IMG/VR virus record: IMGVR_UViG_3300032285_002971
Span: 1-44,098 of that record
From: a virus
DNA: 44,098 nt
Reading direction: 5' to 3' (one strand)
How positions within the stretch are numbered: the first letter of the stretch is position 1; each line of letters starts with the position of its first letter. The notes beneath the pieces are model-generated. The model was given only the letters and a program-made list of their open reading frames with translations, was not told the DNA's origin and did not search any database. Position numbers and translations under genes: made by a program. Shown here in pieces: positions 3,711-40,164 of this stretch.

Positions 3711-4069
3711 TGCCTATCTATCGTAAAGGTGACGAGCAGCACGAGCTCCAACTAAAAGCTTTTGACGACCGTGAAGCGGGAATAGATTCCGCGTTTACTC
3801 CTACAGGTGACGCTATTGGCTCATCCGGTGCTATGAGAGCGGTTGGCGTAGGCCCATCAACAAGGGCTAAAGTTCCCGCTCCTGGAGTTGTAACAGGACC
3901 TGTTAGCGGTGACCATATGACTGCTTTAGAAAAGCTTCATACACGTAATGGAGGCAAAAACCTTCTTGCTAAATCAAAGCAAAGAAAAGTTAATAAACTT
4001 TCTGGAAAATTTACTGGAGAGCAGATTCGTAGCGGGGCTCTTCGTAAACTTGCTGAGGAAAATCAATAA
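3710..4069 (+). CDS. Hypothetical protein, 119 aa
   Basis: A 119-residue basic protein with AGGGAGA before the ATG and TAATG coupling at both ends. It has a short N-terminal strand-like segment (YRKGDEQHELQLKAF), a Gly/Pro/Ala-rich middle (about 30-65) that is probably disordered, and a helical Lys-rich C-terminus (NKLSGKFTGEQIRSGALRKL). The pattern of disordered linker plus basic helix would suit a virion-associated protein. No family is recognised. Confidence 0.6.
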   Translation: MPIYRKGDEQHELQLKAFDDREAGIDSAFTPTGDAIGSSGAMRAVGVGPSTRAKVPAPGVVTGPVSGDHMTALEKLHTRNGGKNLLAKSKQRKVNKLSGKFTGEQIRSGALRKLAEENQ

Positions 4070-4404
4070 TGACTGATAAGCGTTCAGAAGGTCAGTTTAA
4101 TCTTATAAAGCCCGTACAACCTATTCCAACAGGTAAGGGCGTGCCTGATATTACATTAGGTTTTTTAGTTGATGGCAAAGACAACAAAGCACATATGGAA
4201 GACAAGCCAGCCCGATTTGTAGGCGGAGCCGGGGCTCGTATGAAAGCTCTATCTTCAATGGGAAGAGAAGAGCCAGACTCTGTTGTAAAAGTTGGCGAAA
4301 ACAACCCTATCTGGGCCGGTAATAAGCCTGGACGCAGCGCAATTGCTGAGCAACTAGGGCTTCCTAATAAAAAAGAATTTCGCGCTAAAAAGAAAAAAGG
4401 TTAA
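4069..4404 (+). CDS. Hypothetical protein, 111 aa
   Basis: A 111-residue protein in TAATG overlap with the preceding gene. It has a Pro/Gly-rich N-terminal half (IKPVQPIPTGKGVPDITLG), a middle with GGAGARMKALSSMG, and a basic tail (KKEFRAKKKKG). No signal peptide or transmembrane segment is seen. No family is recognised. It is the last member of the stop-start coupled run; the next gene begins three bases downstream. Confidence 0.6.
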   Translation: MTDKRSEGQFNLIKPVQPIPTGKGVPDITLGFLVDGKDNKAHMEDKPARFVGGAGARMKALSSMGREEPDSVVKVGENNPIWAGNKPGRSAIAEQLGLPNKKEFRAKKKKG

Positions 4405-4407
4405 TTA

Positions 4408-4623
4408 ATGAATACTCCAGAAGACCGCGCAGAAGAGCCAGCACGCTCACCAGTCATTCAACGCGTGCTAGCGAGTCAAATGTTGCAACAGTATATTGAC
4501 TCTGCTACTTTGGGTTCTATGACCACATCTACATCTTCTGATGTTTCTGCTGCTGCACCTACTAGTGGTAGTGGAGCAGCCGCTGGTGCGGGAATAATGG
4601 CATCAGGAAGCGGTGTTGCATGA
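4408..4623 (+). CDS. Ala/Ser/Gly-rich small protein, 71 aa
   Basis: A 71-residue protein whose first 35 residues look helical (RSPVIQRVLASQMLQQYID) and whose second half is a low-complexity Ser/Thr/Ala/Gly tract (about 39-71). The mild hydrophobicity of the tail is not enough for a confident membrane call. It overlaps the next gene by ATGA. No family is recognised. Confidence 0.55.
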   Translation: MNTPEDRAEEPARSPVIQRVLASQMLQQYIDSATLGSMTTSTSSDVSAAAPTSGSGAAAGAGIMASGSGVA

Positions 4624-4790
4624 GTCGCGTAGAACACTTTAATGGAGAAGTTCCAGAAGGCTGGGGTACTCATACACCTGAGTCTTTAGATGAAATGGAC
4701 AAGTGGGCTGAGGCTGAGCATAATAAGCTTGCTAAAGAAAAACCACAGAAGTCTTCGTTCATTCCACAAAACCCTAACCCACCGTTCTAA
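4620..4790 (+). CDS. Hypothetical small acidic protein, 56 aa
   Basis: A 56-residue frame starting in an ATGA overlap with the previous gene. It is rich in Glu, Trp and Pro, with VPEGWGTHTPESLDEMDKWA, a short helix and a Pro/Asn-rich C-terminus (FIPQNPNPPF). The stop is followed directly by the AAGGAG of the next gene. It was identified from coupling and coding continuity; function is unknown. Confidence 0.5.
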   Translation: MSRVEHFNGEVPEGWGTHTPESLDEMDKWAEAEHNKLAKEKPQKSSFIPQNPNPPF

Positions 4791-4799
4791 GGAGAGAAT

Positions 4800-4997
4800 A
4801 TGGCCACAGTAGTTGAGGCGCGAGAGTTAACGCTTCAGGACCGCTGTGATTCATGCGGAGCTGCAGCTAAAGTTGTAGCGACACTTCTTAACGGTGAACT
4901 AATGTTTTGCGGTCATCACGCAAAAGCATTTAAAGATGGTTTACAAAATAAAACTGCAAGTTTATACGACCCAGAGGGCGTACTGCTCGCGTTATAA
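4800..4997 (+). CDS. DUF7455-like zinc-binding protein
   Basis: A 65-residue protein with the pattern DRCDSCGAAAKV ... GELMFCGHHAKAF. The CDSC pair (about residues 16-19) and the F-C-G-H-H cluster (about 37-40) form a treble-clef-like zinc site. This matches a small family widespread in Actinobacteria, known to me as DUF7455 and often encoded near sigma-factor genes in those hosts; function is unknown. A strong AAGGAG precedes the ATG. Its presence is one of the better host indicators in the window. Confidence 0.85.
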   Translation: MATVVEARELTLQDRCDSCGAAAKVVATLLNGELMFCGHHAKAFKDGLQNKTASLYDPEGVLLAL

Positions 4998-5023
4998 TTA
5001 TTCTCTATTCACAGGGAGAGTGA

Positions 5024-6643
5024 TTGAGAAAACTGCGTTTATTCGCGGCATTATTCGTAGCAATATCTAGTTCTTTATTTCCTTTACTACTTGCGGATTC
5101 AGCTTATTCAACTTGCTTAAATACATCTCAGGTCGCTGCTATTGCAGCGGCTGCTGAGCCAACTCCTGCGGGAGAAACACCTACAGTAACCACGTTGGAA
5201 ACTTGCGGCGGGGATGATGTGTCCTACCAAGTTCCTATTACCGCGACTATATCTTTTAATAACGAGACCTTTACGTCCGTTTATGCAACTACTAACTCGG
5301 TAATTACTTTTGGTCGCCCCGACAATACTTACTGGACCTACCCCCGCACCCCATCAATATCTCTTTATAGTATGGACTGGTTTGTCTACCCACAAGGGCA
5401 TGCGGATGAGCATTTAATTATTAGTGCTAGTGATGGCGGCTTTCAAGTAGATATTGCTGCGCGTCCATGCTGTAGTGGCGCCCCTATTTCACAGCTAGGC
5501 GATGCTACAAACATCATTATTACTGCCGCTATAAATGCCGACGGCACGGTTGCAATTGTATACGCAGTTACTGGTCCTACTTATGACGGTCAGGCAAGAA
5601 CAGGTGTTCGATTAATTGATGGCAGTATTGTTACTCTTCAAGAGTATGGAGTTGTTCAAGTTTCTCAACCTGTGGTTCTTGCACCGGACGCAGGCGGGAC
5701 AGTGATAACTCCTGTGCCCGTCGAGACTCCAACTGCCACGGTGGATACTCCAACTGTTGTTGATACTTCGACCCCTGGGGGAAATCAGACGGATTCTTCC
5801 ACTCCCACCACGTCAGATACGCAGACAATAGTAGTAGACACATCAACACCAGTAGATACTTCAACGCCTGCTCCTTCCGAACCCGAGCCAACTCCTCCGC
5901 CAGCTCCTGCGCCTATTCCAGCTCCACCACCAGTTTTACCACCAGCGCCTGAGCCTGAGCCTGTCCCTGTACCACCAGCTCCAGCCCCAGACCCTGAGCC
6001 AGAACCACCTGTGGCTATTCCAGACCCGCCACCTCCGGTAATTGTACCTGACCCAGCACCTACGCCAGAGCCTGCCCCTGCGCCTGCCCCTGCACCAGAA
6101 CCGGCACCAGCTCCTGCACCTGAGCCTGCTCCAGAGCCCGCTCCAGCACCAGCTGAAGTTGTTGACGGTTTAATAGAAAATAACCCAAGTTCGCTACCTG
6201 ATGATATTCCAAAAGAAGCACCAGAAGAACTACTTGTTCCTCACGTACAAGAAGATAAAGCTGGCGTAGAAAACGGCGGTATTGAATTTTTTGGTACTAA
6301 GACTCAACCACAAGTTATTGGAGAAGACGGAAAGCTAACGCCTCCTCCTCCGCCACCAGGTTCAGGCTTACCTATACCACCTGATGCGATAACCTTAAGT
6401 GAAACATTTATCGGGCAACCAGGCGGCACAACATTCAATGCACCTGACGTTGCTGTCCCAGTTATCGAGACTCCAGTTACAGGAGCTCTTGCTGCCGTGC
6501 CAGGAGTTCAGGCGCTAAACCACGCATTCGTTGCTATGGCAAACATAGGTAACGATATGTCCCCAATTACTCGTAAAAAAGCTAAAAAAATCTTGGTGAT
6601 AACGACCGTTATTGCCGCAGTCAGAGGGAGAATCGGAAAGTAA
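5024..6643 (+). CDS. Exported proline-rich surface protein with NIDO-like domain
   Basis: A 539-residue protein starting at TTG 5024 with GGGAG upstream. A signal peptide covers residues 1-28 (MRKLRLFAALFV... ending near ADSAYS). A beta-rich domain at about 60-215 has FNNETFTSVYATTNSVITFG and SDGGFQVDIAAR, resembling nidogen-like extracellular domains. A Thr/Pro then Pro-Ala-Glu stalk (about 225-385, with repeated APAPEPAP) follows. Near the C-terminus a basic KKAKKILVITTVIAAVRGR segment could be a short membrane anchor. It is joined by TAATG to two small membrane proteins and the endolysin. It may be a cell-surface or envelope-spanning protein acting in lysis or superinfection exclusion; this is inference from layout. 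Confidence 0.75.
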   Translation: MRKLRLFAALFVAISSSLFPLLLADSAYSTCLNTSQVAAIAAAAEPTPAGETPTVTTLETCGGDDVSYQVPITATISFNNETFTSVYATTNSVITFGRPDNTYWTYPRTPSISLYSMDWFVYPQGHADEHLIISASDGGFQVDIAARPCCSGAPISQLGDATNIIITAAINADGTVAIVYAVTGPTYDGQARTGVRLIDGSIVTLQEYGVVQVSQPVVLAPDAGGTVITPVPVETPTATVDTPTVVDTSTPGGNQTDSSTPTTSDTQTIVVDTSTPVDTSTPAPSEPEPTPPPAPAPIPAPPPVLPPAPEPEPVPVPPAPAPDPEPEPPVAIPDPPPPVIVPDPAPTPEPAPAPAPAPEPAPAPAPEPAPEPAPAPAEVVDGLIENNPSSLPDDIPKEAPEELLVPHVQEDKAGVENGGIEFFGTKTQPQVIGEDGKLTPPPPPPGSGLPIPPDAITLSETFIGQPGGTTFNAPDVAVPVIETPVTGALAAVPGVQALNHAFVAMANIGNDMSPITRKKAKKILVITTVIAAVRGRIGK

Positions 6644-8796: not shown

Positions 8797-9507
8797 ATGG
8801 CCGCATCGTATCCAGGTTCGATTCATACCTTCAACACTCACGCAAATACTGTTGAAGTTATTGACGCATCTCACCCAAATGACATTCAAAATGAAGTTTA
8901 TGCCATTGAGGCTACCCTCGGCGTAAACCCCGCCCTATCAACAGCACCTGCCTCTTCGGGCAGCTGGACAGGTACAGCAACAACCTTTGCTAGCGTATCT
9001 GCTCGTATTGCTAACGTAGAGCAAGGCGTAGTTGGCGACAGCCACACTCAATACATCCGTAAAGCCGGTGACTCAACCAACGTTATTACCGCTGGAACGT
9101 CTTCCACAAAGCCTTTAGTTATTAAAGCAGCAGCTAGCCAAAGTGCTAACCTTTTAGAGTTTCAAGATTCATCAGGTACAGTACTCAACGCTGTAAGCTC
9201 TTCAGGAGCATTTTCTGGCGTAGTTTCCACATCTACAGTTACTACTAAGGGAGACCTTATTGTCGCTACAGCTTCAGGCACTGTATCTCGCCTTGGAGTA
9301 GGCTCCGACGGTAACTTTTTAATTGCAGACTCAACACAAACAACTGGCGTAAAGTGGGCCAGCATCTCAACAGCTGGCGCTGTTAGTGTTACAAATGGAA
9401 CCGTTACTACTGCCTCAACTTCACTTGGTGTTGTGCGTAACATTTGGACATCCACCGGCACACCTACAGGTGGCGCTGATGGGGATATTTGGATTCAATA
9501 CGCATAA
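8797..9507 (+). CDS. Tail fibre or virion appendage protein, 236 aa
   Basis: A 236-residue Ser/Thr/Ala-rich beta protein. The N-terminal module (about 1-45) contains SYPGSIHTF, HPNDIQNEVYAIEATLG and is common at the head of phage fibre proteins. A middle trimeric-fibre-like region follows. A module at about 148-190 (TTKGDLIVATASGTVSRLGV ... IADSTQTTGVKW) also occurs, diverged, at 32274-32636. The C-terminus ends in GDIWIQYA. It joins the next fibre gene by TAATG. It is probably a short fibre or connector involved in host contact. Confidence 0.75.
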   Translation: MAASYPGSIHTFNTHANTVEVIDASHPNDIQNEVYAIEATLGVNPALSTAPASSGSWTGTATTFASVSARIANVEQGVVGDSHTQYIRKAGDSTNVITAGTSSTKPLVIKAAASQSANLLEFQDSSGTVLNAVSSSGAFSGVVSTSTVTTKGDLIVATASGTVSRLGVGSDGNFLIADSTQTTGVKWASISTAGAVSVTNGTVTTASTSLGVVRNIWTSTGTPTGGADGDIWIQYA

Positions 9508-10550
9508 TGTCAAACTCAATAAAGGTAGCGGGCACCTGGAAAACTCTTAAAAGTGTCTCGTTAAACACCGGTGGAACTTGGAGAGGTTCTACTGCTGCCT
9601 TTATTAAAGTTGGCGGCATATGGAAACAGTGGTACACAGGTTTAATTTTAGATACATTTACTCGTTCAGGTGTTAACTTAGGCACCTCTGATACGGGAGC
9701 TTCTTGGAATATTCTTAGAGGTTCTTGGTATACAAATGGTTCAAGCGCGCAATCAGACGACTCTGCAAGCACTTATCCAATTGCAGTAGTTCCTCTTGGA
9801 ATTTCTGATGCTACTGTTTCAGCAACAGTAACTGCAGGAACTGGCCCTGTATTTTGGGCAGTTGACCAGGATAATTGGTGGGCGGCTGTTCTTTACGAAA
9901 CTCAATCTTCCTATACATATTCATATACTTACTCTTGTACTATTTGCGCAGCGTGCGTAACGTGTAAAACGTGTACTCAACCAGCTGGAACATACCCAAG
10001 CTGTAACTGCGGCACTACAACAACTACTACTTGTACTAATTGTTCTGGTTATCGTTCTGGAACTGTAGGGTGTTTTGGTGGATGCTGCTACCCAACAGCT
10101 ACGCCTGGCAACTATTTAGGGCCTTATAACGGCGGATGTTCTAACACCTATAGCTGCACAGCTTGTTCTGGAACGGTAACAAGTTGTTCTATTTGCGGTT
10201 CTACAACAGGCGGACCTTGTTCTTGCCCTTACACAAGCACTTGTTCAGGCTCAGCTACTGGGTACACAACTAACTACTTTTTAAGAGTTATTAAATCTGT
10301 TGCTGGAACAGTTACTGTAGAAGGTTCAGATACCTCTCTAGCGTCTCTACCTGCTGCTATAAAGGTGACAACCCTAAGTGGCGGCATAACTATTCAACCT
10401 TATTCAGATACAGCTCTAACCTCTGCTCTAGGGTCCCCAATAACCTTGACTCCATCGAGCCCTAACCAAGGTACAAATTACGGTATAGTTAAGTCCCCTA
10501 GCGCGTATGAACAAGGCGCAACAGTGGATAACTTTACGGTTCAACCATAA
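9507..10550 (+). CDS. Fibre protein with cysteine-rich insert
   Basis: Read from the ATG at 9507 (TAATG with the previous gene); 347 residues. Residues 1-40 repeat a V-x-G-x-W-K motif. A beta-sandwich (about 45-125) resembling concanavalin-like lectin domains contains DNWWAAVLYE. It is interrupted by a cysteine-rich block of roughly 105 residues (about 137-240) with 20 cysteines, many as C-x2-C. The sandwich then resumes with YFLRVIKSVAGTVTVEG. The insert is rich in Thr, Ser, Gly and Tyr, few charges. It could be a disulfide-knotted surface loop or a metal-binding patch used for receptor contact; the role is inference. Confidence 0.7.
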   Translation: MSNSIKVAGTWKTLKSVSLNTGGTWRGSTAAFIKVGGIWKQWYTGLILDTFTRSGVNLGTSDTGASWNILRGSWYTNGSSAQSDDSASTYPIAVVPLGISDATVSATVTAGTGPVFWAVDQDNWWAAVLYETQSSYTYSYTYSCTICAACVTCKTCTQPAGTYPSCNCGTTTTTTCTNCSGYRSGTVGCFGGCCYPTATPGNYLGPYNGGCSNTYSCTACSGTVTSCSICGSTTGGPCSCPYTSTCSGSATGYTTNYFLRVIKSVAGTVTVEGSDTSLASLPAAIKVTTLSGGITIQPYSDTALTSALGSPITLTPSSPNQGTNYGIVKSPSAYEQGATVDNFTVQP

Positions 10551-10560
10551 GGAGCATTAA

Positions 10561-10830
10561 ATGACTGACAGGCCAGCTAGACCTTGGGACTTGTTTAATA
10601 AAAACATTGGCCGCGTGGAAACAGAAATTGCTGAAAAGCGTTTAGCTATATGTAAAGCTTGCCCAAAGTACGTATCTTTGACCCATCAATGCCTTGAGTG
10701 CGGCTGCATTATGAACGCTAAAGTTAAGCTTCCAAATGCTTTTTGCCCATTACATAAATGGGAAGCGGCTCAAGGAATGCTAACAGGTGAGCTAACAGAC
10801 GACGGACTTAAGGAGTCAAATAATGAGTAA
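10561..10830 (+). CDS. Zinc-ribbon phage protein (DUF6171-like)
   Basis: An 89-residue protein beginning RPARPWDLFNKNIGRV, then E-x-A-E-x-R-L-x-I-C-K-A-C-P, HQCLECGCIMNAKVKLP and NAFCPLHKW. The Cys pairs C-x2-C (31, 34), C-x2-C-x-C (44-49) and a later Cys (about 62) form a zinc ribbon. Proteins of this pattern are common in T4-like and cyanophage genomes near fibre genes; DUF6171 is my recollection of the family name. The function is unknown, perhaps an assembly factor. It overlaps the next gene by 8 bases. Confidence 0.8.
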   Translation: MTDRPARPWDLFNKNIGRVETEIAEKRLAICKACPKYVSLTHQCLECGCIMNAKVKLPNAFCPLHKWEAAQGMLTGELTDDGLKESNNE

Positions 10831-24583: not shown

Positions 24584-25648
24584 GTGGCTGTAATTTCTGA
24601 CCTACTCTCTAGAGTTCGTCTAGAGCTGGGTGACCAGCAGAAGCAATTCACCTTTACAGGTCTTGGCGATGGTGTAACTAAAGCTTTTTACGTAGAGCAC
24701 AAGCCAATTGAGCTTTCCAGTCTTTATATTAAAGTAGGCTCTACTCAGCTTGCCTACCCCGCTGATTATTCAGTTGAAGAAGATATTGGCGTTATCCACT
24801 TTACAACAGCACCTGCTGATTTGGCGACCATCACAGTTTCTGGTCTAGAAGACCGCTACTTCCTTGATAATCAGCTTTGCCAGTTTATTAACGACGCGCT
24901 TACTCAACATACATATAACCGCACAGACGCCTTTGGCAGTCTAGTTACTATCAGTTCTGTCCCCGCAGTGGAAGAATACCCACTGGCCATCCTAGCTACT
25001 ATTGAAGCGCTATGGGCGCTCGCTACGGATGCGTCTTTTGATATAGACATCACGGCACCGGATGGGGTACATATTCCTCGTTCTGAACGTTACCGTCAGA
25101 TTAGTTCACTTATTCAACAGCGTTGGGAACAGTACCGTCAGCTATGCGCGGCGCTTAATATTGGTCTTTGGAAGATTGAAATGGGAACGCTTCGTCGTAT
25201 ATCCCGTACAACTAACAAGCTTGTACCTGTTTATATGGCACAAGAGGTAGATGATAGCCGTCGTCCAGAGCGCGTTTACATTCAAAATGACCTTAATGGC
25301 CGCTCACCGCTACCAACAACAGCACAGATTTATGACATTACTTTGTATCAAGGAAACTCTTTTGAAGCGGAATTTGACTTTCCATTTGACACAACTGGCT
25401 TAGAGTTTGCAGCACAGATTAGAACTTATCCAAATGCTCCGTCTCTATACGCTACATTTGATATAACTGTTGTATCAACGTCATCAACGTTAAGTAAGAT
25501 TAAGCTTAGCTTAACTACCGCAGATACTGATTATATGCCTGTAAGAGCATTCTGGGATTTGAGGGCTACTATGCCAGCTGACCCAAATTATGCGCAGACA
25601 TATATCAAAGGTCAGGTGTTTACAACTCAGGCGGTAACAGTTGACTAG
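24584..25648 (+). CDS. Neck/head-tail connector fused to a BppU-like domain
   Basis: A 354-residue protein, start GTG with GGGAG upstream. The N-terminal part (about 1-200) has helical [20 protein letters not shown], then a beta insert with [18 protein letters not shown] and [13 protein letters not shown], as in head-tail adaptors. The C-terminal 110 residues (about 245-354) match the BppU N-terminal type: [39 protein letters not shown] and ending [12 protein letters not shown]. It may join head and neck structures while carrying a fibre-docking domain. The junction between these units is the unusual point. Confidence 0.7.
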
Positions 25649-28340
25649 TTGCAACTACTGTTCCTGTAACCCCTGCTGCTGTGGCGCTCAAGGCGTCACA
25701 GTTATTCCTTCTTCCCCAATTGTTGTAACGGTTAATCCGTCAACACAAACAATTACCAACCCAGGCCCTATAACAGTTGTACCTGCTATTCAAGGCGCCA
25801 CAGGTATTCAAGGGCCACAAGGTTTTGGTTATGCGCAGATGCAAGGTGTTCAGGGACCGCAAGGTATCCAAGGCGGACCTGGCGCACAAGGAATTCAAGG
25901 CGTTCAAGGACGCACAGGTACGCAGGGTCTACAAGGATTTGGTTACGCGCAACAACGTGGTGCTCAAGGTACTCAAGGAACATATGGCGCTCAAGGTGTT
26001 GCCGGTACATCTGTAACCATTCTTGGTTCGTATAACTCTGAAGCAGAACTTATTGCCGCGCACCCCACAGGTAGCAATGGCGACGGTTACATCATTGACC
26101 CATATCTATATGTTTGGATTGATACTGCTTGGGTTAACGTAGGTGTTGTTCAAGGTCCTCAAGGTACGCAGGGAACTCAAGGCATTCAAGGTGTGCAAGG
26201 CACACAAGGTTTGCAAGGTGTTCAGGGTGAAACAGGAATCCAAGGATTTGATGGAATACAGGGTACTCAAGGAGTACAAGGTGACCAAGGGGTTCAAGGT
26301 TTACAAGGTTTTGACGGCATTCAGGGAACGCAAGGTTTGCAAGGCGACCAGGGTATCCAAGGCATTCAAGGATTTGATGGTACTCAAGGCACACAGGGTT
26401 TACAAGGTGACCAAGGAATTCAAGGGCTGCAAGGCTTTGATGGAACGCAAGGAACACAAGGTCTACAAGGAGACCAAGGTGTTCAAGGTGAAATTGGTAT
26501 TCAAGGACTTGATGGACTACAAGGTTTTGATGGCGCACAAGGCACTCAGGGTCTACAAGGTGAAACAGGTTTACAAGGTTTCACAGGTATACAAGGAGCT
26601 GATGGTTATCTAGGCGCGGATGGTGCGCAAGGAACGCAAGGCACGCAAGGTGTTCAAGGAAGTAACGGACTCCAAGGTACTCAAGGATTACAAGGCGTAC
26701 AAGGCGCACAGGGCGTACAAGGTGCTCAAGGTTTACAGGGAACACAAGGCACGCAAGGAACTCAAGGAAATCAAGGTGTTCAAGGAGTTCAAGGCTTACA
26801 AGGGCTTCAAGGTGTTCAAGGTATTCAAGGAGTTCAAGGCCCTGCAAATTTAAACAACGCTCACCTTTCAGTTTCTTTAGCAACTGCAGCGGTTCTTCCT
26901 AACTCACCTACTTACACAGCAGGAACAACAGATGCTTCTGGTGGAACTGGTATTGGCGCTTATTTACAAGCAACAACTTTTGGTGCTCTTGTAGTTGATG
27001 GCGTAACAGTAACCTCAGTTGGACAACGTATTTTGGTTAAAGACCAAGTAACAACAACCAATAACGGAATCTATGTAGTAACTACTATTGGTAATGGCTC
27101 CACTTACTGGAAACTTACTCGTGCCTCTGACTATGACGATAGCAGCACAGGAGAAGTTCAATACGGTGATTTTGTTCTTGTAGTTGCAGGAAACACACAC
27201 TCAGGACAGTCTTGGATTCAATACGCCACTGGTTCACTCTCTGGTGGGGCAATCAAGATTGGCACAGATGCAATCCTTTGGACACAGACTACTGGTACCG
27301 GTGCTCAAGGTGCTACTGGTTCAACTGGTGCTGGTGGAACTATTGCTTACTGGGGTTCTTTCTGGAACACAACAAATGACATTATTTCTAGCACAACAAC
27401 AGCGTATCCATTGCCGCTTAATAGCTCAGACCCTAATAACTTTGGCGTTTCTATACAGAACAGTAGCCAAATTAAGTTCTCTTATGCTGGCGTTTACAAC
27501 ATTCAGTTCTCTGCACAGATAAAAAACACCGATACTCAAATACATGATGCAAGTTTTTGGATAAGATTAAATGGAACAGATGTCGCAGAAACTCGTGGTG
27601 AAATTGCTGTAACATCTTCTCACGGAGGTACTGCAGGGTACACCCTTGCTGCATGGAACTACGTACTTAAATTAGCCGCTAATGATTATGTAGAACTAGT
27701 ATGGCAGTCAGAAAGCACACAAATATCATTAGCAACACTAAGTGCTGGAACAAGTCCTACTTCTCCAACATCACCTTCTCTTATCCTTACAGCAACACAA
27801 GTTGCTTACGCACTTCAAGGTACACAAGGTCTGCAAGGTATTCAAGGACTGCAAGGACTGCAAGGTGCTCAAGGTCTACAAGGTCTACAAGGAATTCAAG
27901 GTCTACAAGGAATTCAAGGGCTTACTGGTTCCACAGGTTCCACAGGAGCAACTGGTTTACAGGGGCTTCAAGGACTGCAAGGTTTACAAGGCACACAAGG
28001 TGTTTTAGGTGCGCAAGGAACTTACTTTGTATCAGCCACTGTTCCAGCATCTCCTGTATCAGGTAATGCTTGGCTAAACACAACAACAGGTCGTCTGTAC
28101 ATTTACGACGGAACTAGTTGGTTTGAGCCGTATAATAATCAAACTGGAGCGCAGGGTACGCAGGGAATTCAGGGACTTCAAGGTTTTGGTTACGCTCAAT
28201 TACAAGGTGTTCAAGGAGTGCAAGGAACACAGGGTATACAAGGCTTAACTGGCGCGGGAACCCAGGGTATTCAAGGTACTGCTGGTCCTGCGGCTACAAC
28301 AGATGATTTGACCGTTTCTATAGTAATGCAACGTTTCTAA
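25641..28340 (+). CDS. Large collagen-like G-x-Q tail fibre
   Basis: An 899-residue protein, TTG start overlapping the previous stop by 8 bases. The N-terminus has seven cysteines in its first 16 residues ([12 protein letters not shown]). Collagen-like G-x-Q triplets run at about 50-115, 168-399, 724-791 and 836-885. Between them are a small beta module ([12 protein letters not shown]...), a fibre module (about 403-553, [15 protein letters not shown]), and a C1q-like jelly-roll (about 564-722: ISFS... ending [11 protein letters not shown]). Glutamine replaces most Pro/Hyp of animal collagen. It is probably a long flexible trimeric fibre that places a C1q-like head near the host. Confidence 0.88.
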
Positions 28341-28659: not shown

Positions 28660-29285
28660 TGGACATTTATAAGCTTTCTAATGCGGGAGGTCTAACTACC
28701 AAAACGCGTTACTCAAGTATGCTGGCAGGTAATACAGTATGGAATCCGTATTCTGTTACTGGCTCATATGACTCTTTGGCAACTGTAACATTAAGCGCAA
28801 ATCAGTCATCTATTGTATTTAGTAATATTCCTAGCACGTATGCTCATCTTCAAATTCGTGCAATATTTAGAAATACAAATTCAGGCACAGGTGTTGACTG
28901 GGTTGATATGCAACTTAATGGAGATACTGGTTCAAATTATAAAGCACATTATCTTATCGGAGATGGCGGTTCCGCATCAGCCGCAGTAAGCGGATTAACA
29001 ACAGGAATGATTACCGCGTTAGGTAATCCCAATAGTGGCAATACAGCAAATGCTTTTGGTGCTGGAATCTTTGATATTCTTGATTATGCAAATACAAACA
29101 AATATAAAACTGTACGTACTTTACACGGATTAAGCAACAATGCAACAAGTGAAAACTATGTTGGAATTAACTCTGGTTTATGGATGAGTACTGCTGCTAT
29201 TACATCTATTACTTTATATAACAATACGGGTGGTGCAAATTTTGCTCCATATTCTTCCTTCGCACTATACGGGGTGAAAGCATAA
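28659..29285 (+). CDS. Fibre protein with beta module type 1, 208 aa
   Basis: A 208-residue protein starting in a TAATG overlap. The module at about 40-208 (SSIVFSNIPSTYAHLQIRAI, LNGDTGSNYKAHYL, DILDYANTNKYKTVRTL, SGLWMSTAAITSITLY, SSFALYGVKA) recurs in the N-termini of 29285-30640 and 30640-32016. It lacks the glycine-rich domain. Probably a fibre or tail-surface protein; the role is inferred from the module sharing. Confidence 0.65.
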   Translation: MDIYKLSNAGGLTTKTRYSSMLAGNTVWNPYSVTGSYDSLATVTLSANQSSIVFSNIPSTYAHLQIRAIFRNTNSGTGVDWVDMQLNGDTGSNYKAHYLIGDGGSASAAVSGLTTGMITALGNPNSGNTANAFGAGIFDILDYANTNKYKTVRTLHGLSNNATSENYVGINSGLWMSTAAITSITLYNNTGGANFAPYSSFALYGVKA

Positions 29286-30640
29286 TGGCTACTAATACAT
29301 ATGTTGCGCTTCAAACACAGACGCTTAGTTCAAATACAGCGGCTGTTACTTTTTCATCTATACCATCTGGTTATACAGATTTAGTTATTGTATTTAACGG
29401 TTCATTATCAAGCGCAAACTCTCCTGCTTATAGAATTAATGGAGATACCGCTAGCAATTATTCAGCAACAGATATGACTGGTGATGGTTCTTCTGCTCAA
29501 AGCGCAAGAAATAGCAGTGTTGCTTGGGGTACATTGGGTGGTATGTTTGCAACAGTAACTGCTGGTAATCAATTTTCAATGATTATCAATGTTATGAATT
29601 ATGCAAATACAACAACATACAAAACTGTTATGACTAGAACCTCAGTTGCTGGTCAAATGTCAGAAGCGTCAGTTAGTCTTTGGCGTAGCACGGCAGCAGT
29701 AACTTCATTTACAGTGCAGGGATATAACAATGGTGGAGCATATGCCACAGGCTCAACCTTCACCCTATACGGCATCGCAGCCGAAGGACAGGGTTATGCC
29801 ACAGGCGGTTTGATTACCTCCGACGCTAATTACTATTACCACGCTTTTACTTCATCAGGAACGTTTACTCCAAGCAAAGCACTTACTGCTGACATCCTTG
29901 TTGTTGCTGGCGGTGGTGGCGGCTCAGGCTCTGGAGCAGGTGCTGGTGGCTTATTGACTTTTGCTTCTCAATCTCTTACTAGCGGAACAAGTTATACTTG
30001 CACTGTTGGTGCTGGCGGTGCTGGCTCATCCAATGGACAATCAGCAAATGGTTCTAACGGTGGCAACTCACAGTTTGGCGCATTAACCGCAACAGTGGGT
30101 GGCGGTGCTGGTGTTTACACTGGCGGTAGTTTACTTAATGGTCTTAGCGGTGGTTCTGGCTCAGGTGGAACGCAAGGTGGTGGCTCAGGTTCTGGTGCAG
30201 GCTTGGGCGGCGCTGGCACTTCAGGTCAAGGCTATGCAGGCGGTGCCTCTTACACATTTACGGCATCATCATCTTCATCAGGCGGTGGCGGTGGAGCAGG
30301 TGGAGTCGGTGGAAACGCACCATCTGTAAACTCTGCTGGAGTTGGCGGAGTCGGTTACACATCATCTCTTATTAACGCAATGGCTTTAGCAACTGGTACT
30401 GGTCAACTATCAAGTGGTAATTACTACTACGCTGGTGGTGGAGGCGGTGGCTATTATGTCAATGGCTCCGCCGTAGCAGGTGGACTTGGTGGTGGTGGTA
30501 CTGGCTCATCTAACAATGCTGCTGGTTCATCAGCGCTAGCAAACACAGGCGGTGGTGGTGGTGGATATTATTCAGAAACCTATAAAACTGCTGTGTACAA
30601 CGGTGGCTCAGGCGTAATCATAGTTAGGTACCCAAGATAA
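29285..30640 (+). CDS. Beta-module plus glycine-rich adhesin, 451 aa
   Basis: A 451-residue protein with the shared beta module at about 1-165 (VTFSSIPSGYTDLVIVFNGS, INGDTASNYSATDM, STFTLYGIAAE) and a glycine-rich domain at about 175-451. The latter opens with GGLITSDANYYYHAFTSSG, has long Gly/Ser/Ala repeats, and closes with GGSGVIIVRYPR. The glycine-rich domain is like those of T-even-type receptor-binding adhesins, where polyglycine sandwich loops bind receptors. It starts and stops with TAATG overlaps in a four-gene coupled run. Confidence 0.72.
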   Translation: MATNTYVALQTQTLSSNTAAVTFSSIPSGYTDLVIVFNGSLSSANSPAYRINGDTASNYSATDMTGDGSSAQSARNSSVAWGTLGGMFATVTAGNQFSMIINVMNYANTTTYKTVMTRTSVAGQMSEASVSLWRSTAAVTSFTVQGYNNGGAYATGSTFTLYGIAAEGQGYATGGLITSDANYYYHAFTSSGTFTPSKALTADILVVAGGGGGSGSGAGAGGLLTFASQSLTSGTSYTCTVGAGGAGSSNGQSANGSNGGNSQFGALTATVGGGAGVYTGGSLLNGLSGGSGSGGTQGGGSGSGAGLGGAGTSGQGYAGGASYTFTASSSSSGGGGGAGGVGGNAPSVNSAGVGGVGYTSSLINAMALATGTGQLSSGNYYYAGGGGGGYYVNGSAVAGGLGGGGTGSSNNAAGSSALANTGGGGGGYYSETYKTAVYNGGSGVIIVRYPR

Positions 30641-32016
30641 TGGCAGCAAACTACGTTCTCCTTGAAAAGATAACAGTCGGCGCAACCAAGGCTGCTTCGA
30701 TTACTTTTAATAACATTCCTCAAACTGGTTACACTGACTTAAAATTGGTTATGTCTACACGCCTTGATTCAGCATCAGGTGCAAACTTTAACTATGTTAA
30801 ATTTAATGGAAGTTCAACTGGATTTACCATTAGAACATTAGAAGGCAGTGGCAATGGCGCAGGTTCAGGAAGCGGTTCTACTGGCAATGCTGGACTAGAT
30901 GAAGGCACAAGTTACACCGCTAATACATTTTCCAGTACTGATATTTATATTCCCAATTATACATCCAGTAATTACAAATCCTATAGCGTAGAAACCGTTA
31001 CTGAAAATAATGCGACTGCTGCTTATATGGAAATGGTTGCAGGGCTTTGGTCAAATACCGCTGCTATCACAAGCGTAACGGTTTACCCTGACACTGGTGG
31101 GCGTAACTATGTTCAATACTCAACCTTCGCCCTCTACGGCCTAGCCGCAGTCGGCGCTACTCCAGCTATTGATCCAAAGGCTACTGGCGGAGATATCATT
31201 CAGACCGATGGCACATACTGGTACCACGCCTTCTTGTCCTCTGGAACATTTACTCCGAAGGCCGGACTTACTTGTGATTATCTTGTTATTGCAGGCGGCG
31301 GTGGAGGAGGCGGGGGCTGGGAAGGTGCTGGTGGAGGAGCAGGAGGACTTCGCTCTACAGTAACTGCTACAGGAGGTGGCGGAACACTTGAACCCGCTAT
31401 ATCTTTAAATTCTGGGACGGCGTATACCGTTACTATTGGCGCAGGTGGAGCTGGAGGCGCTTCAGGTAATAACTTGCACGGTACTCAAGGTTCTAATTCT
31501 GTTTTTTCTACTATTACCTCGATAGGTGGCGGTTACGGAGCTTCGGGAGCAAACTTAGAAAACGGCGGTAGTGGAGGTTCTGGCGGTGGAACTGGACGCC
31601 AAGGAACTGGTGGAACCGGAACTTCTGGTCAAGGTTATGCTGGCGGATATAACACAACCTTCACACCAACTGGTGCTTATGCAACTGGTGGTGGTGGTGG
31701 AGCTGGTCAAGTTGGAGGTAATTCCAGTGCAGATAGCTCTGCTGGTGCTGGAGGCGCTGGCGTATCAATACCATCATTTGCTTCCGCTACCTCTACTGGA
31801 GTCAGCAATTATTATGCTGGCGGTGGTGGTGGTGCTGCTTACACCGGTTCTACTAATGGAGCTGGAGGAGCGGGTGGCGGCGGAGCTGGTAACTATAGTA
31901 CTCCTACAACAGGAACTGCTAATACTGGCGGTGGCGGTGGTGGTGCTCGTATTGATACTGGTGCTGGAGCAGCAGGCGGGTCTGGTTTAGTAATTATTAG
32001 ATACTCAAGAACATAA
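30640..32016 (+). CDS. Beta-module plus glycine-rich adhesin, 458 aa
   Basis: A 458-residue paralogue of its neighbour: beta module (about 1-172: SITFNNIPQTGYTDLKLVMS, GLWSNTAAITSVTVYPDTGG, STFALYGLAAVG), then GGDIIQTDGTYWYHAFLSSG and a glycine-rich domain ending GGSGLVIIRYSRT. The glycine-rich half is 40 percent or more Gly by eye. Different Gly-rich loop sequences from the neighbour suggest divergent receptor specificities. Function inferred: host recognition at a fibre or spike tip. Confidence 0.72.
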   Translation: MAANYVLLEKITVGATKAASITFNNIPQTGYTDLKLVMSTRLDSASGANFNYVKFNGSSTGFTIRTLEGSGNGAGSGSGSTGNAGLDEGTSYTANTFSSTDIYIPNYTSSNYKSYSVETVTENNATAAYMEMVAGLWSNTAAITSVTVYPDTGGRNYVQYSTFALYGLAAVGATPAIDPKATGGDIIQTDGTYWYHAFLSSGTFTPKAGLTCDYLVIAGGGGGGGGWEGAGGGAGGLRSTVTATGGGGTLEPAISLNSGTAYTVTIGAGGAGGASGNNLHGTQGSNSVFSTITSIGGGYGASGANLENGGSGGSGGGTGRQGTGGTGTSGQGYAGGYNTTFTPTGAYATGGGGGAGQVGGNSSADSSAGAGGAGVSIPSFASATSTGVSNYYAGGGGGAAYTGSTNGAGGAGGGGAGNYSTPTTGTANTGGGGGGARIDTGAGAAGGSGLVIIRYSRT

Positions 32017-32025
32017 GGAGAAACA

Positions 32026-32253
32026 ATGACAGATAAAAAGATTATCGTTGACTGCTCTACTGGGATAGTAACAGAAGTAGAATTGACTGCTGAAGAAATT
32101 CAGCAACGTGAACTAGAGGCTATTGCAGCGGCTACAGCTAAGGCTGAAGCTGATGCTAGGGCTGAAGCTGAGGCGGACGCCAAGCTTAATGCTCAGGCAA
32201 AGCTTGCTGCGCTAGGACTTACTCCAGAAGAAATTGCAGCACTAATTAAATAG
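32026..32253 (+). CDS. Small fibre-linked protein with Ala-rich helix, 75 aa
   Basis: A 75-residue protein with AAGGAG before the ATG. The first 18 residues are strand-like (KKIIVDCSTGIVTEVEL), followed by a long amphipathic helix rich in Ala/Glu (about 20-68, QRELEAIAAATAKAEADARA). This form resembles short proteins accompanying phage fibre genes, some proposed as assembly chaperones. Exact function is unknown. Confidence 0.6.
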   Translation: MTDKKIIVDCSTGIVTEVELTAEEIQQRELEAIAAATAKAEADARAEAEADAKLNAQAKLAALGLTPEEIAALIK

Positions 32254-32273
32254 TTTAAAGAAGCGGATAAAAA

Positions 32274-32636
32274 ATGCCTATTAGCTTTCCAACAACAGGG
32301 TTAGTAACTAATGTTACGACCTATACCTACCTGGGTCATACCTGGTTGTGGAACGGCACTACTTGGGATTCCACAGGAACTATCCAAGGACTTCAAGGAA
32401 CTCAAGGTATTACTGGCCTACAAGGGACTGTAGGGCTTCAAGGCAATACCGGTAACGCTGGAACAACAATAGTTACAGCTAAAGGCGATTTGATTGTTGG
32501 AACAGCGTCATCAACAGTAACTAACCAAGCAATAGGCGGAAACTACCAAACACTTATTGCTGACTCAGCGGTAACTAATGGGTTACGATGGGGAGACGAT
32601 TTGAGACTATTAGATATTATGGGAGCGAACCTTTAA
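32274..32636 (+). CDS. Short collagen-like fibre protein, 120 aa
   Basis: A 120-residue protein with an N-terminal beta segment (LVTNVTTYTYLGHTWLWNG), a short collagen-like G-x-Q/T stretch (about 39-63), then VTAKGDLIVGTASSTV ... IADSAVTNGLRWGD, a diverged copy of the module in 8797-9507. It ends one base before the next ATG. It may be a small fibre or capping protein of the collagen-like shaft. Confidence 0.65.
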   Translation: MPISFPTTGLVTNVTTYTYLGHTWLWNGTTWDSTGTIQGLQGTQGITGLQGTVGLQGNTGNAGTTIVTAKGDLIVGTASSTVTNQAIGGNYQTLIADSAVTNGLRWGDDLRLLDIMGANL

Positions 32637-32951
32637 ATGGCAATTACAGTAAAAGCCTTAACACGTGCAGCGGCGGCAACATCAAGCGCTACCCTATATA
32701 CAGTACCTAACTCAAGCACAACTACTATTGTTACTAACATTGTAGTAACTAATACCGCAGCCACTTCAGCCACATTTACTATTAACATTGACTCTGTAGC
32801 GATATTAAGCGGAGTTTCACTTGCTGCTAATACTTCGGCTTTCTTTGACCTTAAGCAGGTAATACCAGCTAATGCTACCCCTAAAACAATTACTGGTTTA
32901 GCTTCCGCAACTACTGTTAACTTTCATATCAGTGGCGTAGAGATAGCGTAA
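32637..32951 (+). CDS. Small beta-rich fibre protein, paralogue of 28351-28659
   Basis: A 104-residue Thr/Ala/Ser-rich protein with LYTVPNSSTTTIVTNIVVTN and the end NFHISGVEIA shared with 28351-28659. The rest has diverged, so the duplication is old. It lies one base after the collagen-like 32274 gene, and both paralogues follow a collagen-bearing gene in the same order, which suggests a fibre-plus-cap cassette copied once. Confidence 0.65.
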   Translation: MAITVKALTRAAAATSSATLYTVPNSSTTTIVTNIVVTNTAATSATFTINIDSVAILSGVSLAANTSAFFDLKQVIPANATPKTITGLASATTVNFHISGVEIA

Positions 32952-32957
32952 TAAACT

Positions 32958-33602
32958 ATGGGCGCAAATATATACCCGGTGCCGGCGTCTACAGCATCTA
33001 TTACTGACCCTACTATCGGCATTCCTACAAACGTAACTTTACGCAACTCGTACACATCAAGCACATCAGGATTATCTTTTCCTGTAACTAACGTCTTTGC
33101 ACTTGTTGTAGGCGGAGGCGGAGCTGGCGGTTGTAGCGGTAGCGGCGGATATTATGGCGGTGGCGGAGGTGGCGGAGTAGTTATGGGCTGGATTCCTGCC
33201 CCAACTTCCGTAACTGTTGGCGCTGGCGCTCCTGGCGTAGGAACTAACCAAGCTGGCGGTTCTGGTGGTTATAGTAAAGCAGGACCGCTTATTGCAGGTG
33301 GCGGCGGCGGTGGCGCAAACTATAACGCTAATGGTGGTCAAGGTTATTATGGTAGTGGTGCAGGATACGGTTACAACGGAACTGCTGGTGGCGGCGCTTA
33401 CTTAAACGCTTATGGCGGTCTTGGTGGACAATATGGAACCGGAAGCGGTGGAGACTATCCAACAGGTCTTTTTACTGGTGGTGGTGTAAGCGGTGGTGCT
33501 GCTGGACAAGCATATAAAACCTCTTATGGATATGGTGGCTACGGACGTAACGGTGGTACATCTGGTTCAGGTGGCGCTGGTTTAGTAGAGATTTACTATT
33601 AA
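32958..33602 (+). CDS. Stand-alone glycine-rich adhesin domain protein, 214 aa
   Basis: A 214-residue protein with a short N-terminal part containing LRNSYTSSTSGLSFPV (about 28-43), then a glycine-rich domain (about 45-214; GGGGAGGCSGSGGYYGGGG, ends GGAGLVEIYY). The N-terminus is like the next gene but unlike the longer adhesins. The Gly-rich domain is the type seen in fibre tips. Probably one of a pair of exchangeable adhesins. Confidence 0.68.
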   Translation: MGANIYPVPASTASITDPTIGIPTNVTLRNSYTSSTSGLSFPVTNVFALVVGGGGAGGCSGSGGYYGGGGGGGVVMGWIPAPTSVTVGAGAPGVGTNQAGGSGGYSKAGPLIAGGGGGGANYNANGGQGYYGSGAGYGYNGTAGGGAYLNAYGGLGGQYGTGSGGDYPTGLFTGGGVSGGAAGQAYKTSYGYGGYGRNGGTSGSGGAGLVEIYY

Positions 33603-33611
33603 GGAGTTCTA

Positions 33612-34274
33612 ATGGGAAGCTCAACTTTTCCTCTTTCATCAGCTGGTGCGGCAATACCTAGTACAGTTTTAGGCGCAGCTCCCGCTGGACTTACTCTTCG
33701 TAATTCATATACATCAAGCACGTCTGGTTTGTCTTTTCCAGTTTCAATGGTTTATGCAATTGTTATTGGAGGAGGCGGCGGTGGAGGAGGCTACCCTAAC
33801 TCTCCGTACGGATATGGCGGCGGTGCAGGTGGACTTGCACAAGGATGGATTCCCGCACCAACCTCAGTGACTGTTGGCGCTGGCGGCGCAGGTGGAGCGA
33901 ACTCTTATGGTGGTACTGGTGGAATGAGCCAAGCAGGATACTTAGTCGCAGGTGGTGGCGGCGGCGGTATGGTAAGCAATGGTTCTGTTACTGCTGGCGG
34001 TGCTGGTGGAGTTAACGCTGGTGCTGGCGGAGGAAACTACACAGCTCCTGTAAACTGGCCTTTAATGGGTAGTGCTGGTTCTCCCCCACTAACAATAGGT
34101 ATTAGTGGTGGTGGCGGACAGCAAACTGGAAGTTTGATAAACGGTGGCGGAAACGTCAACGCTGGAAACGGTGTTGGGTATAAGACCTCTTACGGTTACG
34201 GTGGCGGAGGCACAAGCGGTAACGGAGTTGCTGCTAATGCTGGCGGCGGTGGCCTTGTAGAAATCTATTACTAA
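33612..34274 (+). CDS. Stand-alone glycine-rich adhesin domain protein, 220 aa
   Basis: A 220-residue paralogue of 32958-33602: LRNSYTSSTSGLSFPV is identical in both, then PTSVTVGAG and a glycine-rich domain ending GGGGLVEIYY. The intervening loops differ in sequence and length, as expected for divergent binding loops. The DNA of the identical block differs at synonymous sites, so the copy is not recent. AAGGAG-type sites precede both genes. Confidence 0.68.
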   Translation: MGSSTFPLSSAGAAIPSTVLGAAPAGLTLRNSYTSSTSGLSFPVSMVYAIVIGGGGGGGGYPNSPYGYGGGAGGLAQGWIPAPTSVTVGAGGAGGANSYGGTGGMSQAGYLVAGGGGGGMVSNGSVTAGGAGGVNAGAGGGNYTAPVNWPLMGSAGSPPLTIGISGGGGQQTGSLINGGGNVNAGNGVGYKTSYGYGGGGTSGNGVAANAGGGGLVEIYY

Positions 34275-37523: not shown

Positions 37524-37804
37524 TGGCAATTAGTTCACGTAAATTTGGAAGCGGAGATATCTCTAACTGGGCTCCAGTAGTAGTTGACCCAACAGCATCT
37601 GTTACAGACATTTCTATTCAAAACCTAAGCGGCACCAATAGTGTTTATCTTTCACTTGATGCTGATTGGAATAAGCAGTTTGCTTATCTAGCTACAGGTC
37701 AACTTATTTCTTTTGAAGGTTTAACAGCAGATGATGCAAAAAGAATTTTCATTACAAATGACGGCGGAGATGCCGAAGTTGGGGTTATCGTAATTTCACG
37801 ATGA
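37523..37804 (+). CDS. Virion-associated beta protein, 93 aa
   Basis: A 93-residue beta-rich protein: ISSRKFGSGDISNWAPVVVD, SVTDISIQNLSGTNSVYLSL, ADDAKRIFITNDGGDAEVGV. It is coupled to both neighbours by TAATG and ATGA overlaps. It resembles small trimeric decoration or spike-base proteins. No family is recognised. It directly precedes the large adhesin, so an attachment role is possible. Confidence 0.6.
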   Translation: MAISSRKFGSGDISNWAPVVVDPTASVTDISIQNLSGTNSVYLSLDADWNKQFAYLATGQLISFEGLTADDAKRIFITNDGGDAEVGVIVISR

Positions 37805-40164
37805 CTTTTAAATTTAACAGCCGCATAGTAGGTCGTCGCAGATACGGTAGCACGACCTCTTTTAGCCTTGCTTCGATAGGCGTGCCAGTCGATGTCCCTT
37901 GGACAAATACTGGTGCTGGCGGTACGTTTAGATTTTACGGTGGAACTAACTCATACGTTAGAGTCGCTAACAACGGCCAATTTAATCTAGGTTCTGGCGA
38001 TTTTACTATTGAGTGGTGGCAGTTTGAAACTGACGTTAATGGTGCTCCTAGACCTTGGGCGTTTGGCCCTTGGCCATTAACAGAACTTGGTGTTTCATTT
38101 GAAGGCGGAAGTTTCCTTCTTTGGAGACAGGGCACAAATGCACCTATGGCTTTAAGCAAAGCAACGCTTAATAAGCGTAACCACTTTGCTATTGTTAAAC
38201 ACTCATCTGTAATTGCCGTATATCAAAATGGCGTTAAGTTAAACGAAACAACTGATACCTATACTTATAATTTAACTTATGATTTAACAATTGGTTACGA
38301 AGGCGGTACTTACAACAGTCAATGTTTTGGCGGAGATATAACTAACTTTAATATTGTAAATAGCGCAAAATACACAGCTAACTTTACTCCAACAGACACC
38401 GCTCTTGGCTATGACTCAAATACAAGACTATTATTATCTGCGGAAACCCTTGCCACTTGGACTGCAACAAAGGGAAGTTACACGGGGAGCGTTAGCACAG
38501 GACCTAATACTGATTGGATAAACGTAAGTCCATTCCTTTATCCAGCGCCTGTTCACCCTCTTCCAGTAGTAACGGGCGGAACCCTAAGCCACGATTCAAC
38601 TTACTATTATCGTACGTTTACCGCTAGCGACAGTTTAGTTGTAACTAGCGCTGATTTAACAGCTGACATTCTTGTTGTTGCAGGTGGTGGTTCAGGCTCT
38701 TACTATGGCGGTGGCGGAGCCGGTGGAGTTCTTTACTATTCTTCTCAAACACTAACACCAGCTACTTACACTTGTGCTGTAGGTGCGGGGTCTTCCCTTA
38801 GATATTGGACAGGTAGTGGCGTAGGAAATAATTCACAGTTTGGCTCTTTAGCTCCTGCAATAGGCGGTGGAGCTGGTGGCTCGGTCTATGACCCAACTAT
38901 GGATGGTGGCTCCGGTGGTGGAGGTAGTGAAGGTTATGGAACAAATGGCCACGGAATTCCTGGTCAAGGTCACGATGGTGGAAACCCTAGCTCCGGTGGT
39001 TCTGGTGGCGGAGGTGCAGGTGCAGCTGGTATCGGTAGCAGCGGATACCGTGCTGGTGGAAATGGTGGAGTTGGTACCGCAGATTATTCTGACTGGGGCT
39101 TAGCTACTAGTACTGGTCACCTTGTAAGTGGAACTTACTATTACGCAGGTGGTGGCGGCGGCGGTTCTGGAGAAGGACGTTATAAAGCTGCTGGTGGATA
39201 CGGCGGTGGAGGTGCTGGCGGAGCTAGCGCTGCAGATAACGGCTTACCTGGTATGGCTAACACAGGTGGTGGCGGTGGAGCTGCTGGAACTCAATCTGGT
39301 TGCTGTAACTCCGTTCCTGATACAGGCGGTTCTGGAATTATTATTGTTCGTTACTTAAAGACAGCAGTTGCTCCAGTTCCAACTCCAGTAGTAACAGGTG
39401 GAACTTTAACCTCTGACTCAACTTACTATTACAGAACATTTACAGCTAGCGATACTTTAAATATTACAACCGCGCCATTAAATGTTGATTACCTTGTCCT
39501 TGCTGGTGGCGGTAGTGGTGGATTAAGAATTGGTGGCGGTGGAGGAGCCGGAGGCTACAGAACAAGCCTTGGCGGTTCTCAATTATCTTTGTCACCTAGC
39601 GCTTATTCAGTAATTGTTGGCGCTGGCGGTTCTGCTGGAGGTAATGGAAACGATTCAACATTAGCAACCATTACATCTCTTGGCGGCGGTTATGGTGGCG
39701 ATATTGATGGAGTAACAAACAATGGTAATTCAGGAGGCTCTGGCGGTGGCGGAGAAGCTACTGGTGTAGCTGGTGCTGGAACACCTGGCCAAGGTAATGC
39801 TGGCGGAGACGGTGCTTATGATGGCGCAGGTTGGATATTTGGCGGAGGCGGCGGAGGAGCTGGCACCGCAGGATATCCAGGTAACCACGGCTATTACGGC
39901 GGTGGCGGAGGAGCTGGTGGCGCTGGTGTTACTAGCGATATCTCAGGCACTTCTGTAACTTACGCTGGTGGTGGCGGAGGATGCTTTAACGCAGGATGGG
40001 GCTCTTACTCTGGTGCCGGAGGTGCTGGAGGCGGAGGCGCTGGCGGCGGAGTAAATGGAACTGCAAACCTAGGTGGCGGAGGCGGAGGTGCTACTAATGG
40101 TGGTGCTCCTGGTTCCGGTGGCTCTGGTGTTGTTGTAGTTCGCTACTTAAAATCAGATGTTTAA
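37801..40164 (+). CDS. Large adhesin: lectin-like domain plus two glycine-rich domains
   Basis: A 787-residue protein. Residues about 35-235 form a concanavalin/LamG-like domain (YVRVANNGQFNLGSGDFTIE, WRQGTNAPMALSKATLNKRN, IAVYQNGVKLNETTDTYTYN). Two glycine-rich domains follow at about 255-520 and 528-787, opened by GGTLSHDSTYYYRTFTASDS and GGTLTSDSTYYYRTFTASDT, and closed by GGSGIIIVRYLKT and GGSGVVVVRYLKS. The duplicated halves share the opener but differ in loops. It is probably the main receptor-binding spike, with lectin and Gly-rich tips. ATGA overlap with the previous gene. Confidence 0.82.
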   Translation: MTFKFNSRIVGRRRYGSTTSFSLASIGVPVDVPWTNTGAGGTFRFYGGTNSYVRVANNGQFNLGSGDFTIEWWQFETDVNGAPRPWAFGPWPLTELGVSFEGGSFLLWRQGTNAPMALSKATLNKRNHFAIVKHSSVIAVYQNGVKLNETTDTYTYNLTYDLTIGYEGGTYNSQCFGGDITNFNIVNSAKYTANFTPTDTALGYDSNTRLLLSAETLATWTATKGSYTGSVSTGPNTDWINVSPFLYPAPVHPLPVVTGGTLSHDSTYYYRTFTASDSLVVTSADLTADILVVAGGGSGSYYGGGGAGGVLYYSSQTLTPATYTCAVGAGSSLRYWTGSGVGNNSQFGSLAPAIGGGAGGSVYDPTMDGGSGGGGSEGYGTNGHGIPGQGHDGGNPSSGGSGGGGAGAAGIGSSGYRAGGNGGVGTADYSDWGLATSTGHLVSGTYYYAGGGGGGSGEGRYKAAGGYGGGGAGGASAADNGLPGMANTGGGGGAAGTQSGCCNSVPDTGGSGIIIVRYLKTAVAPVPTPVVTGGTLTSDSTYYYRTFTASDTLNITTAPLNVDYLVLAGGGSGGLRIGGGGGAGGYRTSLGGSQLSLSPSAYSVIVGAGGSAGGNGNDSTLATITSLGGGYGGDIDGVTNNGNSGGSGGGGEATGVAGAGTPGQGNAGGDGAYDGAGWIFGGGGGGAGTAGYPGNHGYYGGGGGAGGAGVTSDISGTSVTYAGGGGGCFNAGWGSYSGAGGAGGGGAGGGVNGTANLGGGGGGATNGGAPGSGGSGVVVVRYLKSDV

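Follow-up and report, generated by a model that had tools for sequence, protein, structure and literature searches.

How a phage fibre protein could come to carry a dense block of cysteines, and what such a block would do, is the question raised by an open reading frame (ORF) at 9507-10550 (+ strand) of IMG/VR record IMGVR_UViG_3300032285_002971. We analysed the whole record, a contig of 44,098 bases from an uncultured phage (hereafter, the window). The ORF encodes a protein of 347 amino acids with exactly 20 cysteines, all of which lie within residues 144-246; the cysteine count of every other ORF of the window is six or lower. Our analysis makes it likely that this protein serves as a receptor-binding domain of a tail fibre or appendage and displays, on a stalk, an exchangeable, hypervariable knob locked by disulfides.

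Architecture of the 347-amino-acid protein

The original prediction, made from the sequence before any database search, had described a block of 20 cysteines at residues 137-240. The block is real and in frame and contains 20 cysteines, but both ends were slightly misplaced, and its true limits are residues 144-246 (9936..10244). As had been described, C-x2-C spacings are frequent, occurring seven times (144/147/150/153/156, 176/179, 217/220 and 227/230) among otherwise mixed spacings, and the background is rich in Thr, Ser, Gly and Tyr besides Cys; Glu, Lys and Arg occur once each, and His is absent. The reading frame is uninterrupted across the block.

Five other parts of the protein were distinguished, all on the + strand. 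Residues 1-45 (9507..9641) form an N-terminal module of KV(A/G)GxW repeats that matches phrog_25859 over the same residues (E=1.8e-8), a PHROG of unknown function that was matched by 23 of 56 family members; this module is the probable attachment or shaft part. It is followed by the first half of a predicted lectin-like beta-sandwich (residues 47-126; 9645..9884), which was assigned with AlphaFold2 and Foldseek, ends in the strand motif FWAVDQDNWWA and is conserved in all relatives. The predicted ascending stalk strand AVLYETQSSYTYSYTYS (residues 127-143; 9885..9935), a sandwich strand that continues outward, leads to the cysteine-rich knob, and the predicted descending strand SGSATGYTTNYF (residues 247-258; 10245..10280) leads back to the second half of the sandwich (residues 259-347, LRVIKSVAG...DNFTVQP; 10281..10547), which is likewise conserved in relatives. 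Thus, the block is a surface insert within a beta-sandwich that picks up again at YFLRVIKS, as originally proposed.

A family with hypervariable inserts at a single site

When the 347-amino-acid protein was used as the sole query, no IMG/VR relative was recovered, because the compositionally biased block hides homology. The family search was anchored on the next gene (10561-10830), which yielded 80 loci, and two alignment scans brought additional loci. Most of the 80 anchored loci encode, just upstream of the anchor, a homologue that shares the sandwich but differs in its cysteine-rich insert. In total, 178 homologous ORFs were collected, approximately 100 of which have distinct complete inserts, and the insertion site in the beta-sandwich is identical, after a strand motif resembling FW(V/I)(T/S)D..(S/N)WWA and before a strand resembling YYLRL(L/I)KSV.G. 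One homologue (L082) has an empty site (FWVEDSDNWWAAVVISTNLKLLKSANG). Chance origin of the block is therefore excluded by this homologue together with the approximately 100 further inserts at the identical site. The comparison with relatives that had been suggested at the outset thus revealed hypervariable, cysteine-dense inserts at the same position.

Two groups of homologues depart from this pattern. The homologues in L182, L185, L207, L225 and L242 carry a long insert at the usual site that contains no cysteine, approximately 24% Tyr and much Ser and Thr, indicating that variable loops of two distinct chemical types are tolerated at this site. Those in L170-L173 (about 3980-6073) lack an insert at the usual site and have a C-terminal part with 44 cysteines, which is likewise an even number.

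The expectation that no common family would be recognised was borne out: none of the 56 members tested matched any Pfam family, including lectin and carbohydrate-binding module (CBM) families. Scans of GTDB genomes with two alignments recovered no relatives, and matches among cultured or GenBank phages were either confined to the N-terminal KVGGxW part (the first 50 residues) or absent. Three proteins of uncultured Caudovirales phages in UniProt/BFVD, A0A6J5KM36 (36% identity in the Foldseek match), A0A6J5RDN1 and A0A6J7WYT9, were matched by Foldseek with E-values of 1e-29 to 7.5e-16; these unnamed proteins without assigned function are, to judge from their predicted structures, likely family members. 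In the open-licence literature, which does not extend to subscription papers, we found no account of such a phage family or of a phage counterpart to the stalk-and-knob arrangement.

Even cysteine numbers in the inserts

If all cysteines are paired within one chain, their number must be even, and even counts are an accepted indicator of such disulfide pairing (PMC3177088). Apart from a few inserts with no cysteine, the counts range from 2 to 64 and are even in every complete insert, and many are not divisible by four. Among 97 unique inserts, one (L221) was flagged as odd; 3 of its 11 counted cysteines belong to an added C-terminal Gly-rich domain, and the insert itself contains 8. Seven odd inserts from the first automatic parity count were each explained by a cysteine lying in the sandwich, a wrongly placed boundary or truncation of the contig. 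Four motif variants that fell outside the search pattern also have even counts. Relatedness among the inserts was handled in two ways. After the correction of L221, none of the 53 cysteine-containing clusters obtained at a cut-off of 50% insert identity was odd, and none of the 60 edges with a changed cysteine number in a minimum spanning tree was an odd step. As a control, other ORFs from the same loci (at least 200 amino acids and at least 4 cysteines) comprised 150 with even and 81 with odd counts (35% odd).

The inserts thus keep an even cysteine number while sequence and length change, which is the behaviour of disulfide-rich domains. We infer that the cysteine number is a signature of disulfide pairing, which speaks against both metal sites and free thiols; the original suggestion of a disulfide-locked loop is borne out to this extent. 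In one relative (L066:2110-3183), the insert has (CNPYx)n repeats towards its N-terminal end and (CYxT)n repeats towards its C-terminal end; each run contains approximately nine cysteines, and the two could form a disulfide ladder between two strands.

Evolution of the inserts

At a sandwich identity of 70-80%, the median identity of the inserts is 31%. At aligned insert positions, cysteine is the most conserved residue (95.2%), followed by Tyr and Gly (approximately 80%). In close pairs, the ratio of non-synonymous (dN) to synonymous (dS) substitution rates in the insert is mostly 0.1-0.3. To judge from these ratios, the inserts are coding sequences mostly under purifying selection. This finding, together with the in-frame relatives, led us to reject a frameshift or an assembly error as the origin of the block.

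In several close pairs, the insert exceeds the flanks in dS (0.146 versus 0.019 in L013/L014, and 0.287 versus 0.086 and 0.498 versus 0.154 in further pairs), which points to the exchange of inserts between phages by recombination. In the pair L019/L025, DNA identity falls at the insert and returns past it. In addition, short cysteine modules are shared among otherwise unrelated inserts, such as TYPSCNCG of the present copy in L069 and TYSCTAC in L064 and L069. A diversity-generating retroelement was rejected as the source of the variation, since no reverse transcriptase (RVT_1) was found in the present record or in 43 others with the family, some of them fragmentary; this result concerns the reverse transcriptase and not the template repeat, which was not searched for.

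Predicted fold, stalk and knob

AlphaFold2 was run with an alignment of 56 sequences. Most of the sandwich, in both halves, was predicted with a local confidence score (predicted local distance difference test, pLDDT) of 94-98. In the model, two long strands (residues 123-146 and 242-265) leave the sandwich as a beta-ribbon, a stalk projecting from a sandwich of the type known from bovine antibodies, by analogy and not by homology. Block values of pLDDT are 98, 93 and 65 going outward along the ascending strand, and 76 and then 96 along the descending strand. An equivalent layout was predicted for the homologue of L195, with stalk strands at residues 99-114 and 192-206. Across the family, aromatic residues of the ascending arm occupy alternate positions (92 versus 38), as would be expected if one face of the strand were aromatic. 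The first cysteine shows no fixed strand parity (30 even and 25 odd positions), so stalk length is not tied to steps of two.

The predicted sandwich has a jelly-roll fold of the concanavalin-A-like lectin/CBM type. Foldseek matched it to the central fibre gp20 of Mycobacteriophage Douge (probability 1.00), to CBM66 (probability up to 0.99; template modelling score 0.65 on the CBM66 length) and to a minor tail protein of a Gordonia phage. The CBM-like domains of Douge gp20 and BppU provide the best fold match in the Protein Data Bank (PDB), and gp20 is, moreover, a tail fibre of an actinobacterial phage; its sequence identity to the present sandwich is approximately 9%. The CBM-like domains of the Douge fibre bind mycobacterial cell-wall glycans; a search of the full text of that report found no mention of disulfides and a single mention of cysteine, in a formula, and no matching insert is reported there (PMC13033339). 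The likeness to CBM66 and to concanavalin-A-like lectins of the LamG type is one of fold and differs from membership in that no known lectin or CBM family is matched in sequence, either in Pfam or in the PDB.

A proposed disulfide-locked knob and its alternatives

The protein could work as follows. One strand pair of the lectin-like jelly-roll sandwich is predicted to extend outward as a two-stranded beta-ribbon stalk, which would carry the exchangeable, hypervariable knob. As the strict evenness suggests, the cysteines of the knob would all be paired within the chain, giving ten disulfides in the present copy. These would hold together a low-charge chain rich in Ser, Thr, Gly, Tyr and Asn with little hydrophobic core, and would keep the shape of the knob rigid while its sequence and length vary freely. 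Different phages may thereby recognise different host-surface structures. Given that the cytoplasm in which the virion is made is reducing, disulfide formation would probably take place at or after lysis; the original suggestion that the loop perhaps closes only after release into oxic water is plausible.

Several observations weigh against this reading. The knob has a pLDDT below 50 over most of residues 150-235, and the knob of the L195 homologue reaches 50-70, so the models provide no disulfide map. The E-values of the Foldseek matches to the PDB are marginal (best, 2.9e-3), and a sequence profile search matched no PDB chain. Evenness could partly stem from the duplication of two-cysteine modules. 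A thiol oxidase that could form the disulfides was not observed among the phage proteins, and the case for receptor binding is built from fold, position and variability.

The reducing cytoplasm could also be taken to favour a knob that binds metal, as the original prediction also allowed, with its cysteines kept reduced in zinc, iron-sulfur or metallothionein-like clusters. The seven C-x2-C spacings of the present copy would suit such clusters, as would the divisibility by four of its cysteine count and of the counts in approximately 60% of the clusters of inserts. However, zinc or iron-sulfur tetrathiolate domains have cysteines (plus histidines) in sets of four, whereas approximately 40% of the clusters are at 2 mod 4, with counts including 2, 6, 10, 14, 18, 22, 26 and 30. 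His makes up 0.3% and Asp/Glu approximately 3% of the insert residues, and C-x2-C accounts for just 9% of the cysteine spacers, with no dominant motif. Furthermore, the protein encoded by the adjacent gene, which looks like a metal-type site, holds a fixed number of 6 cysteines in 98 of its 104 distinct copies, unlike the variable even counts of the inserts. We therefore regard metal binding as improbable. Much the same low probability attaches to the idea that the cysteines covalently join fibre trimers or neighbouring fibres and stabilise the virion, without forming a knob. Phage fibres are usually trimers, and exposed thiols would cross-link on oxidation in water, but cross-links between chains would also be possible with odd numbers of cysteines in each chain, whereas strict evenness favours pairing within the chain; the insert is also far more variable than the remainder of the protein.

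Tandem-like modules in several relatives (for example, L025, L066 and L234) might suggest that the block is repeat-rich DNA with TGY codons that has expanded and drifted neutrally without function. Drift predicts neither the low dN/dS nor the cysteine conservation nor the evenness, and this explanation is refuted in the main and almost certainly wrong. It is also unlikely, though less markedly so, that the protein is a structural decoration, or an environmental-adhesion or anti-protease appendage, with a disulfide-hardened tip that does not bind a receptor. Host binding could instead fall to several other fibre-like, Gly-rich and collagen-like proteins of the window, but a hypervariable part on a conserved scaffold, together with signs of exchange, is typical of host-recognition parts, and the fold relatives bind host glycans.

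Comparison with other variable recognition proteins

In design, the closest analogue of the proposed receptor-binding domain is the bovine ultralong third heavy-chain complementarity-determining region (CDR-H3), in which a stalk carries a disulfide-rich variable knob with a bias towards even cysteine numbers and a strand with alternating Tyr (PMC7366855, PMC6440498). In both proteins, a loop of a beta-sandwich holds a long insert, with a two-stranded beta-ribbon as its stalk (predicted in the phage protein) and a hypervariable knob with many cysteines, and the Tyr-rich strands are similar: bovine IGHD8-2 ends in SSYSYSYTYEY, and the phage protein has SSYTYSYTYSC. However, the phage scaffold is a lectin-like sandwich without homology to the vertebrate immunoglobulin. 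The phage knobs vary between lineages, without somatic mutation, have up to 64 cysteines and are formed in a reducing cytoplasm. The resemblance would thus be one of convergence, not of homology or membership, and points to a design of general use in hypervariable recognition. A stronger reading is that an antibody-like mode of presentation has arisen independently in uncultured phages: a lectin-type sandwich would bear, on a beta-ribbon stalk, an exchangeable, hypervariable, fully disulfide-paired knob that locks or folds only once it is oxidised after lysis and that determines the host range. We find this reading attractive but lean slightly against it in its full form.

Among phage receptor-binding proteins, Mtd of Bordetella phage BPP-1, which is varied by a diversity-generating retroelement, likewise combines a fixed scaffold with a variable region. 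Unlike in such proteins, the present inserts vary by length, module and cysteine number, and RVT_1 was absent from the 44 records. With this family, it becomes testable by what means phages whose hosts are uncultured diversify host recognition when they lack such an element. Reliance on at least ten disulfides per chain would be unexpected in phages whose assembly takes place under the reducing conditions of the cytoplasm; a second testable question is whether oxidation after release can bring phage fibres to maturity. The widespread family, with cysteine changes in even steps, would amount to a library, made by nature, of disulfide-rich binding knobs that share one scaffold.

Genomic context

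The contig encodes, among others, an SPP1-type portal, a large terminase, a capsid protein, a contractile sheath and a CHAP/peptidoglycan-binding lysin. The closest cultured counterparts of the terminase are from Streptomyces phages (54-56% identical), and a DUF7455 protein, a family that we take to be associated with actinobacteria, is also encoded. Because of these terminases, the DUF7455 protein and a fibre fold resembling those of actinophage fibres, the host is probably an actinomycete (Actinomycetota).

Immediately downstream of the fibre gene, the gene used as the search anchor (10561..10830, + strand) encodes a cysteine-containing protein of 89 amino acids with a weak match to DUF6171, below the Pfam cut-off. 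The two genes are adjacent in this order in 58 of the 80 loci anchored on the 89-amino-acid gene and in 57 loci anchored on the fibre. A role as a dedicated partner of the fibre was not supported, because relatives of the 89-amino-acid protein occur in cyanophages and Stenotrophomonas phages. Upstream, a fibre-like ORF of 236 amino acids without cysteine (8797..9507, + strand), identified from the ORF list and its translation, shares one base with the start codon of the fibre ORF and has no match in a Pfam search. A gene for an HSP20/alpha-crystallin small heat-shock protein is located at 1322-1831 (Pfam, E=2e-16).

The window encodes further fibre-like proteins. A collagen-like fibre protein of 899 amino acids (25641-28340) has a cluster of cysteines at its start and none thereafter; this N-terminal cluster is possibly a covalent trimer knot. 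In addition, 29285-34274 and 37801-40164 encode several fibre-like proteins that are rich in Gly and have GGGGAG-type repeats, one of which matches Pfam Gly_rich_2, suggesting that several alternative host-contact proteins are present within one phage.
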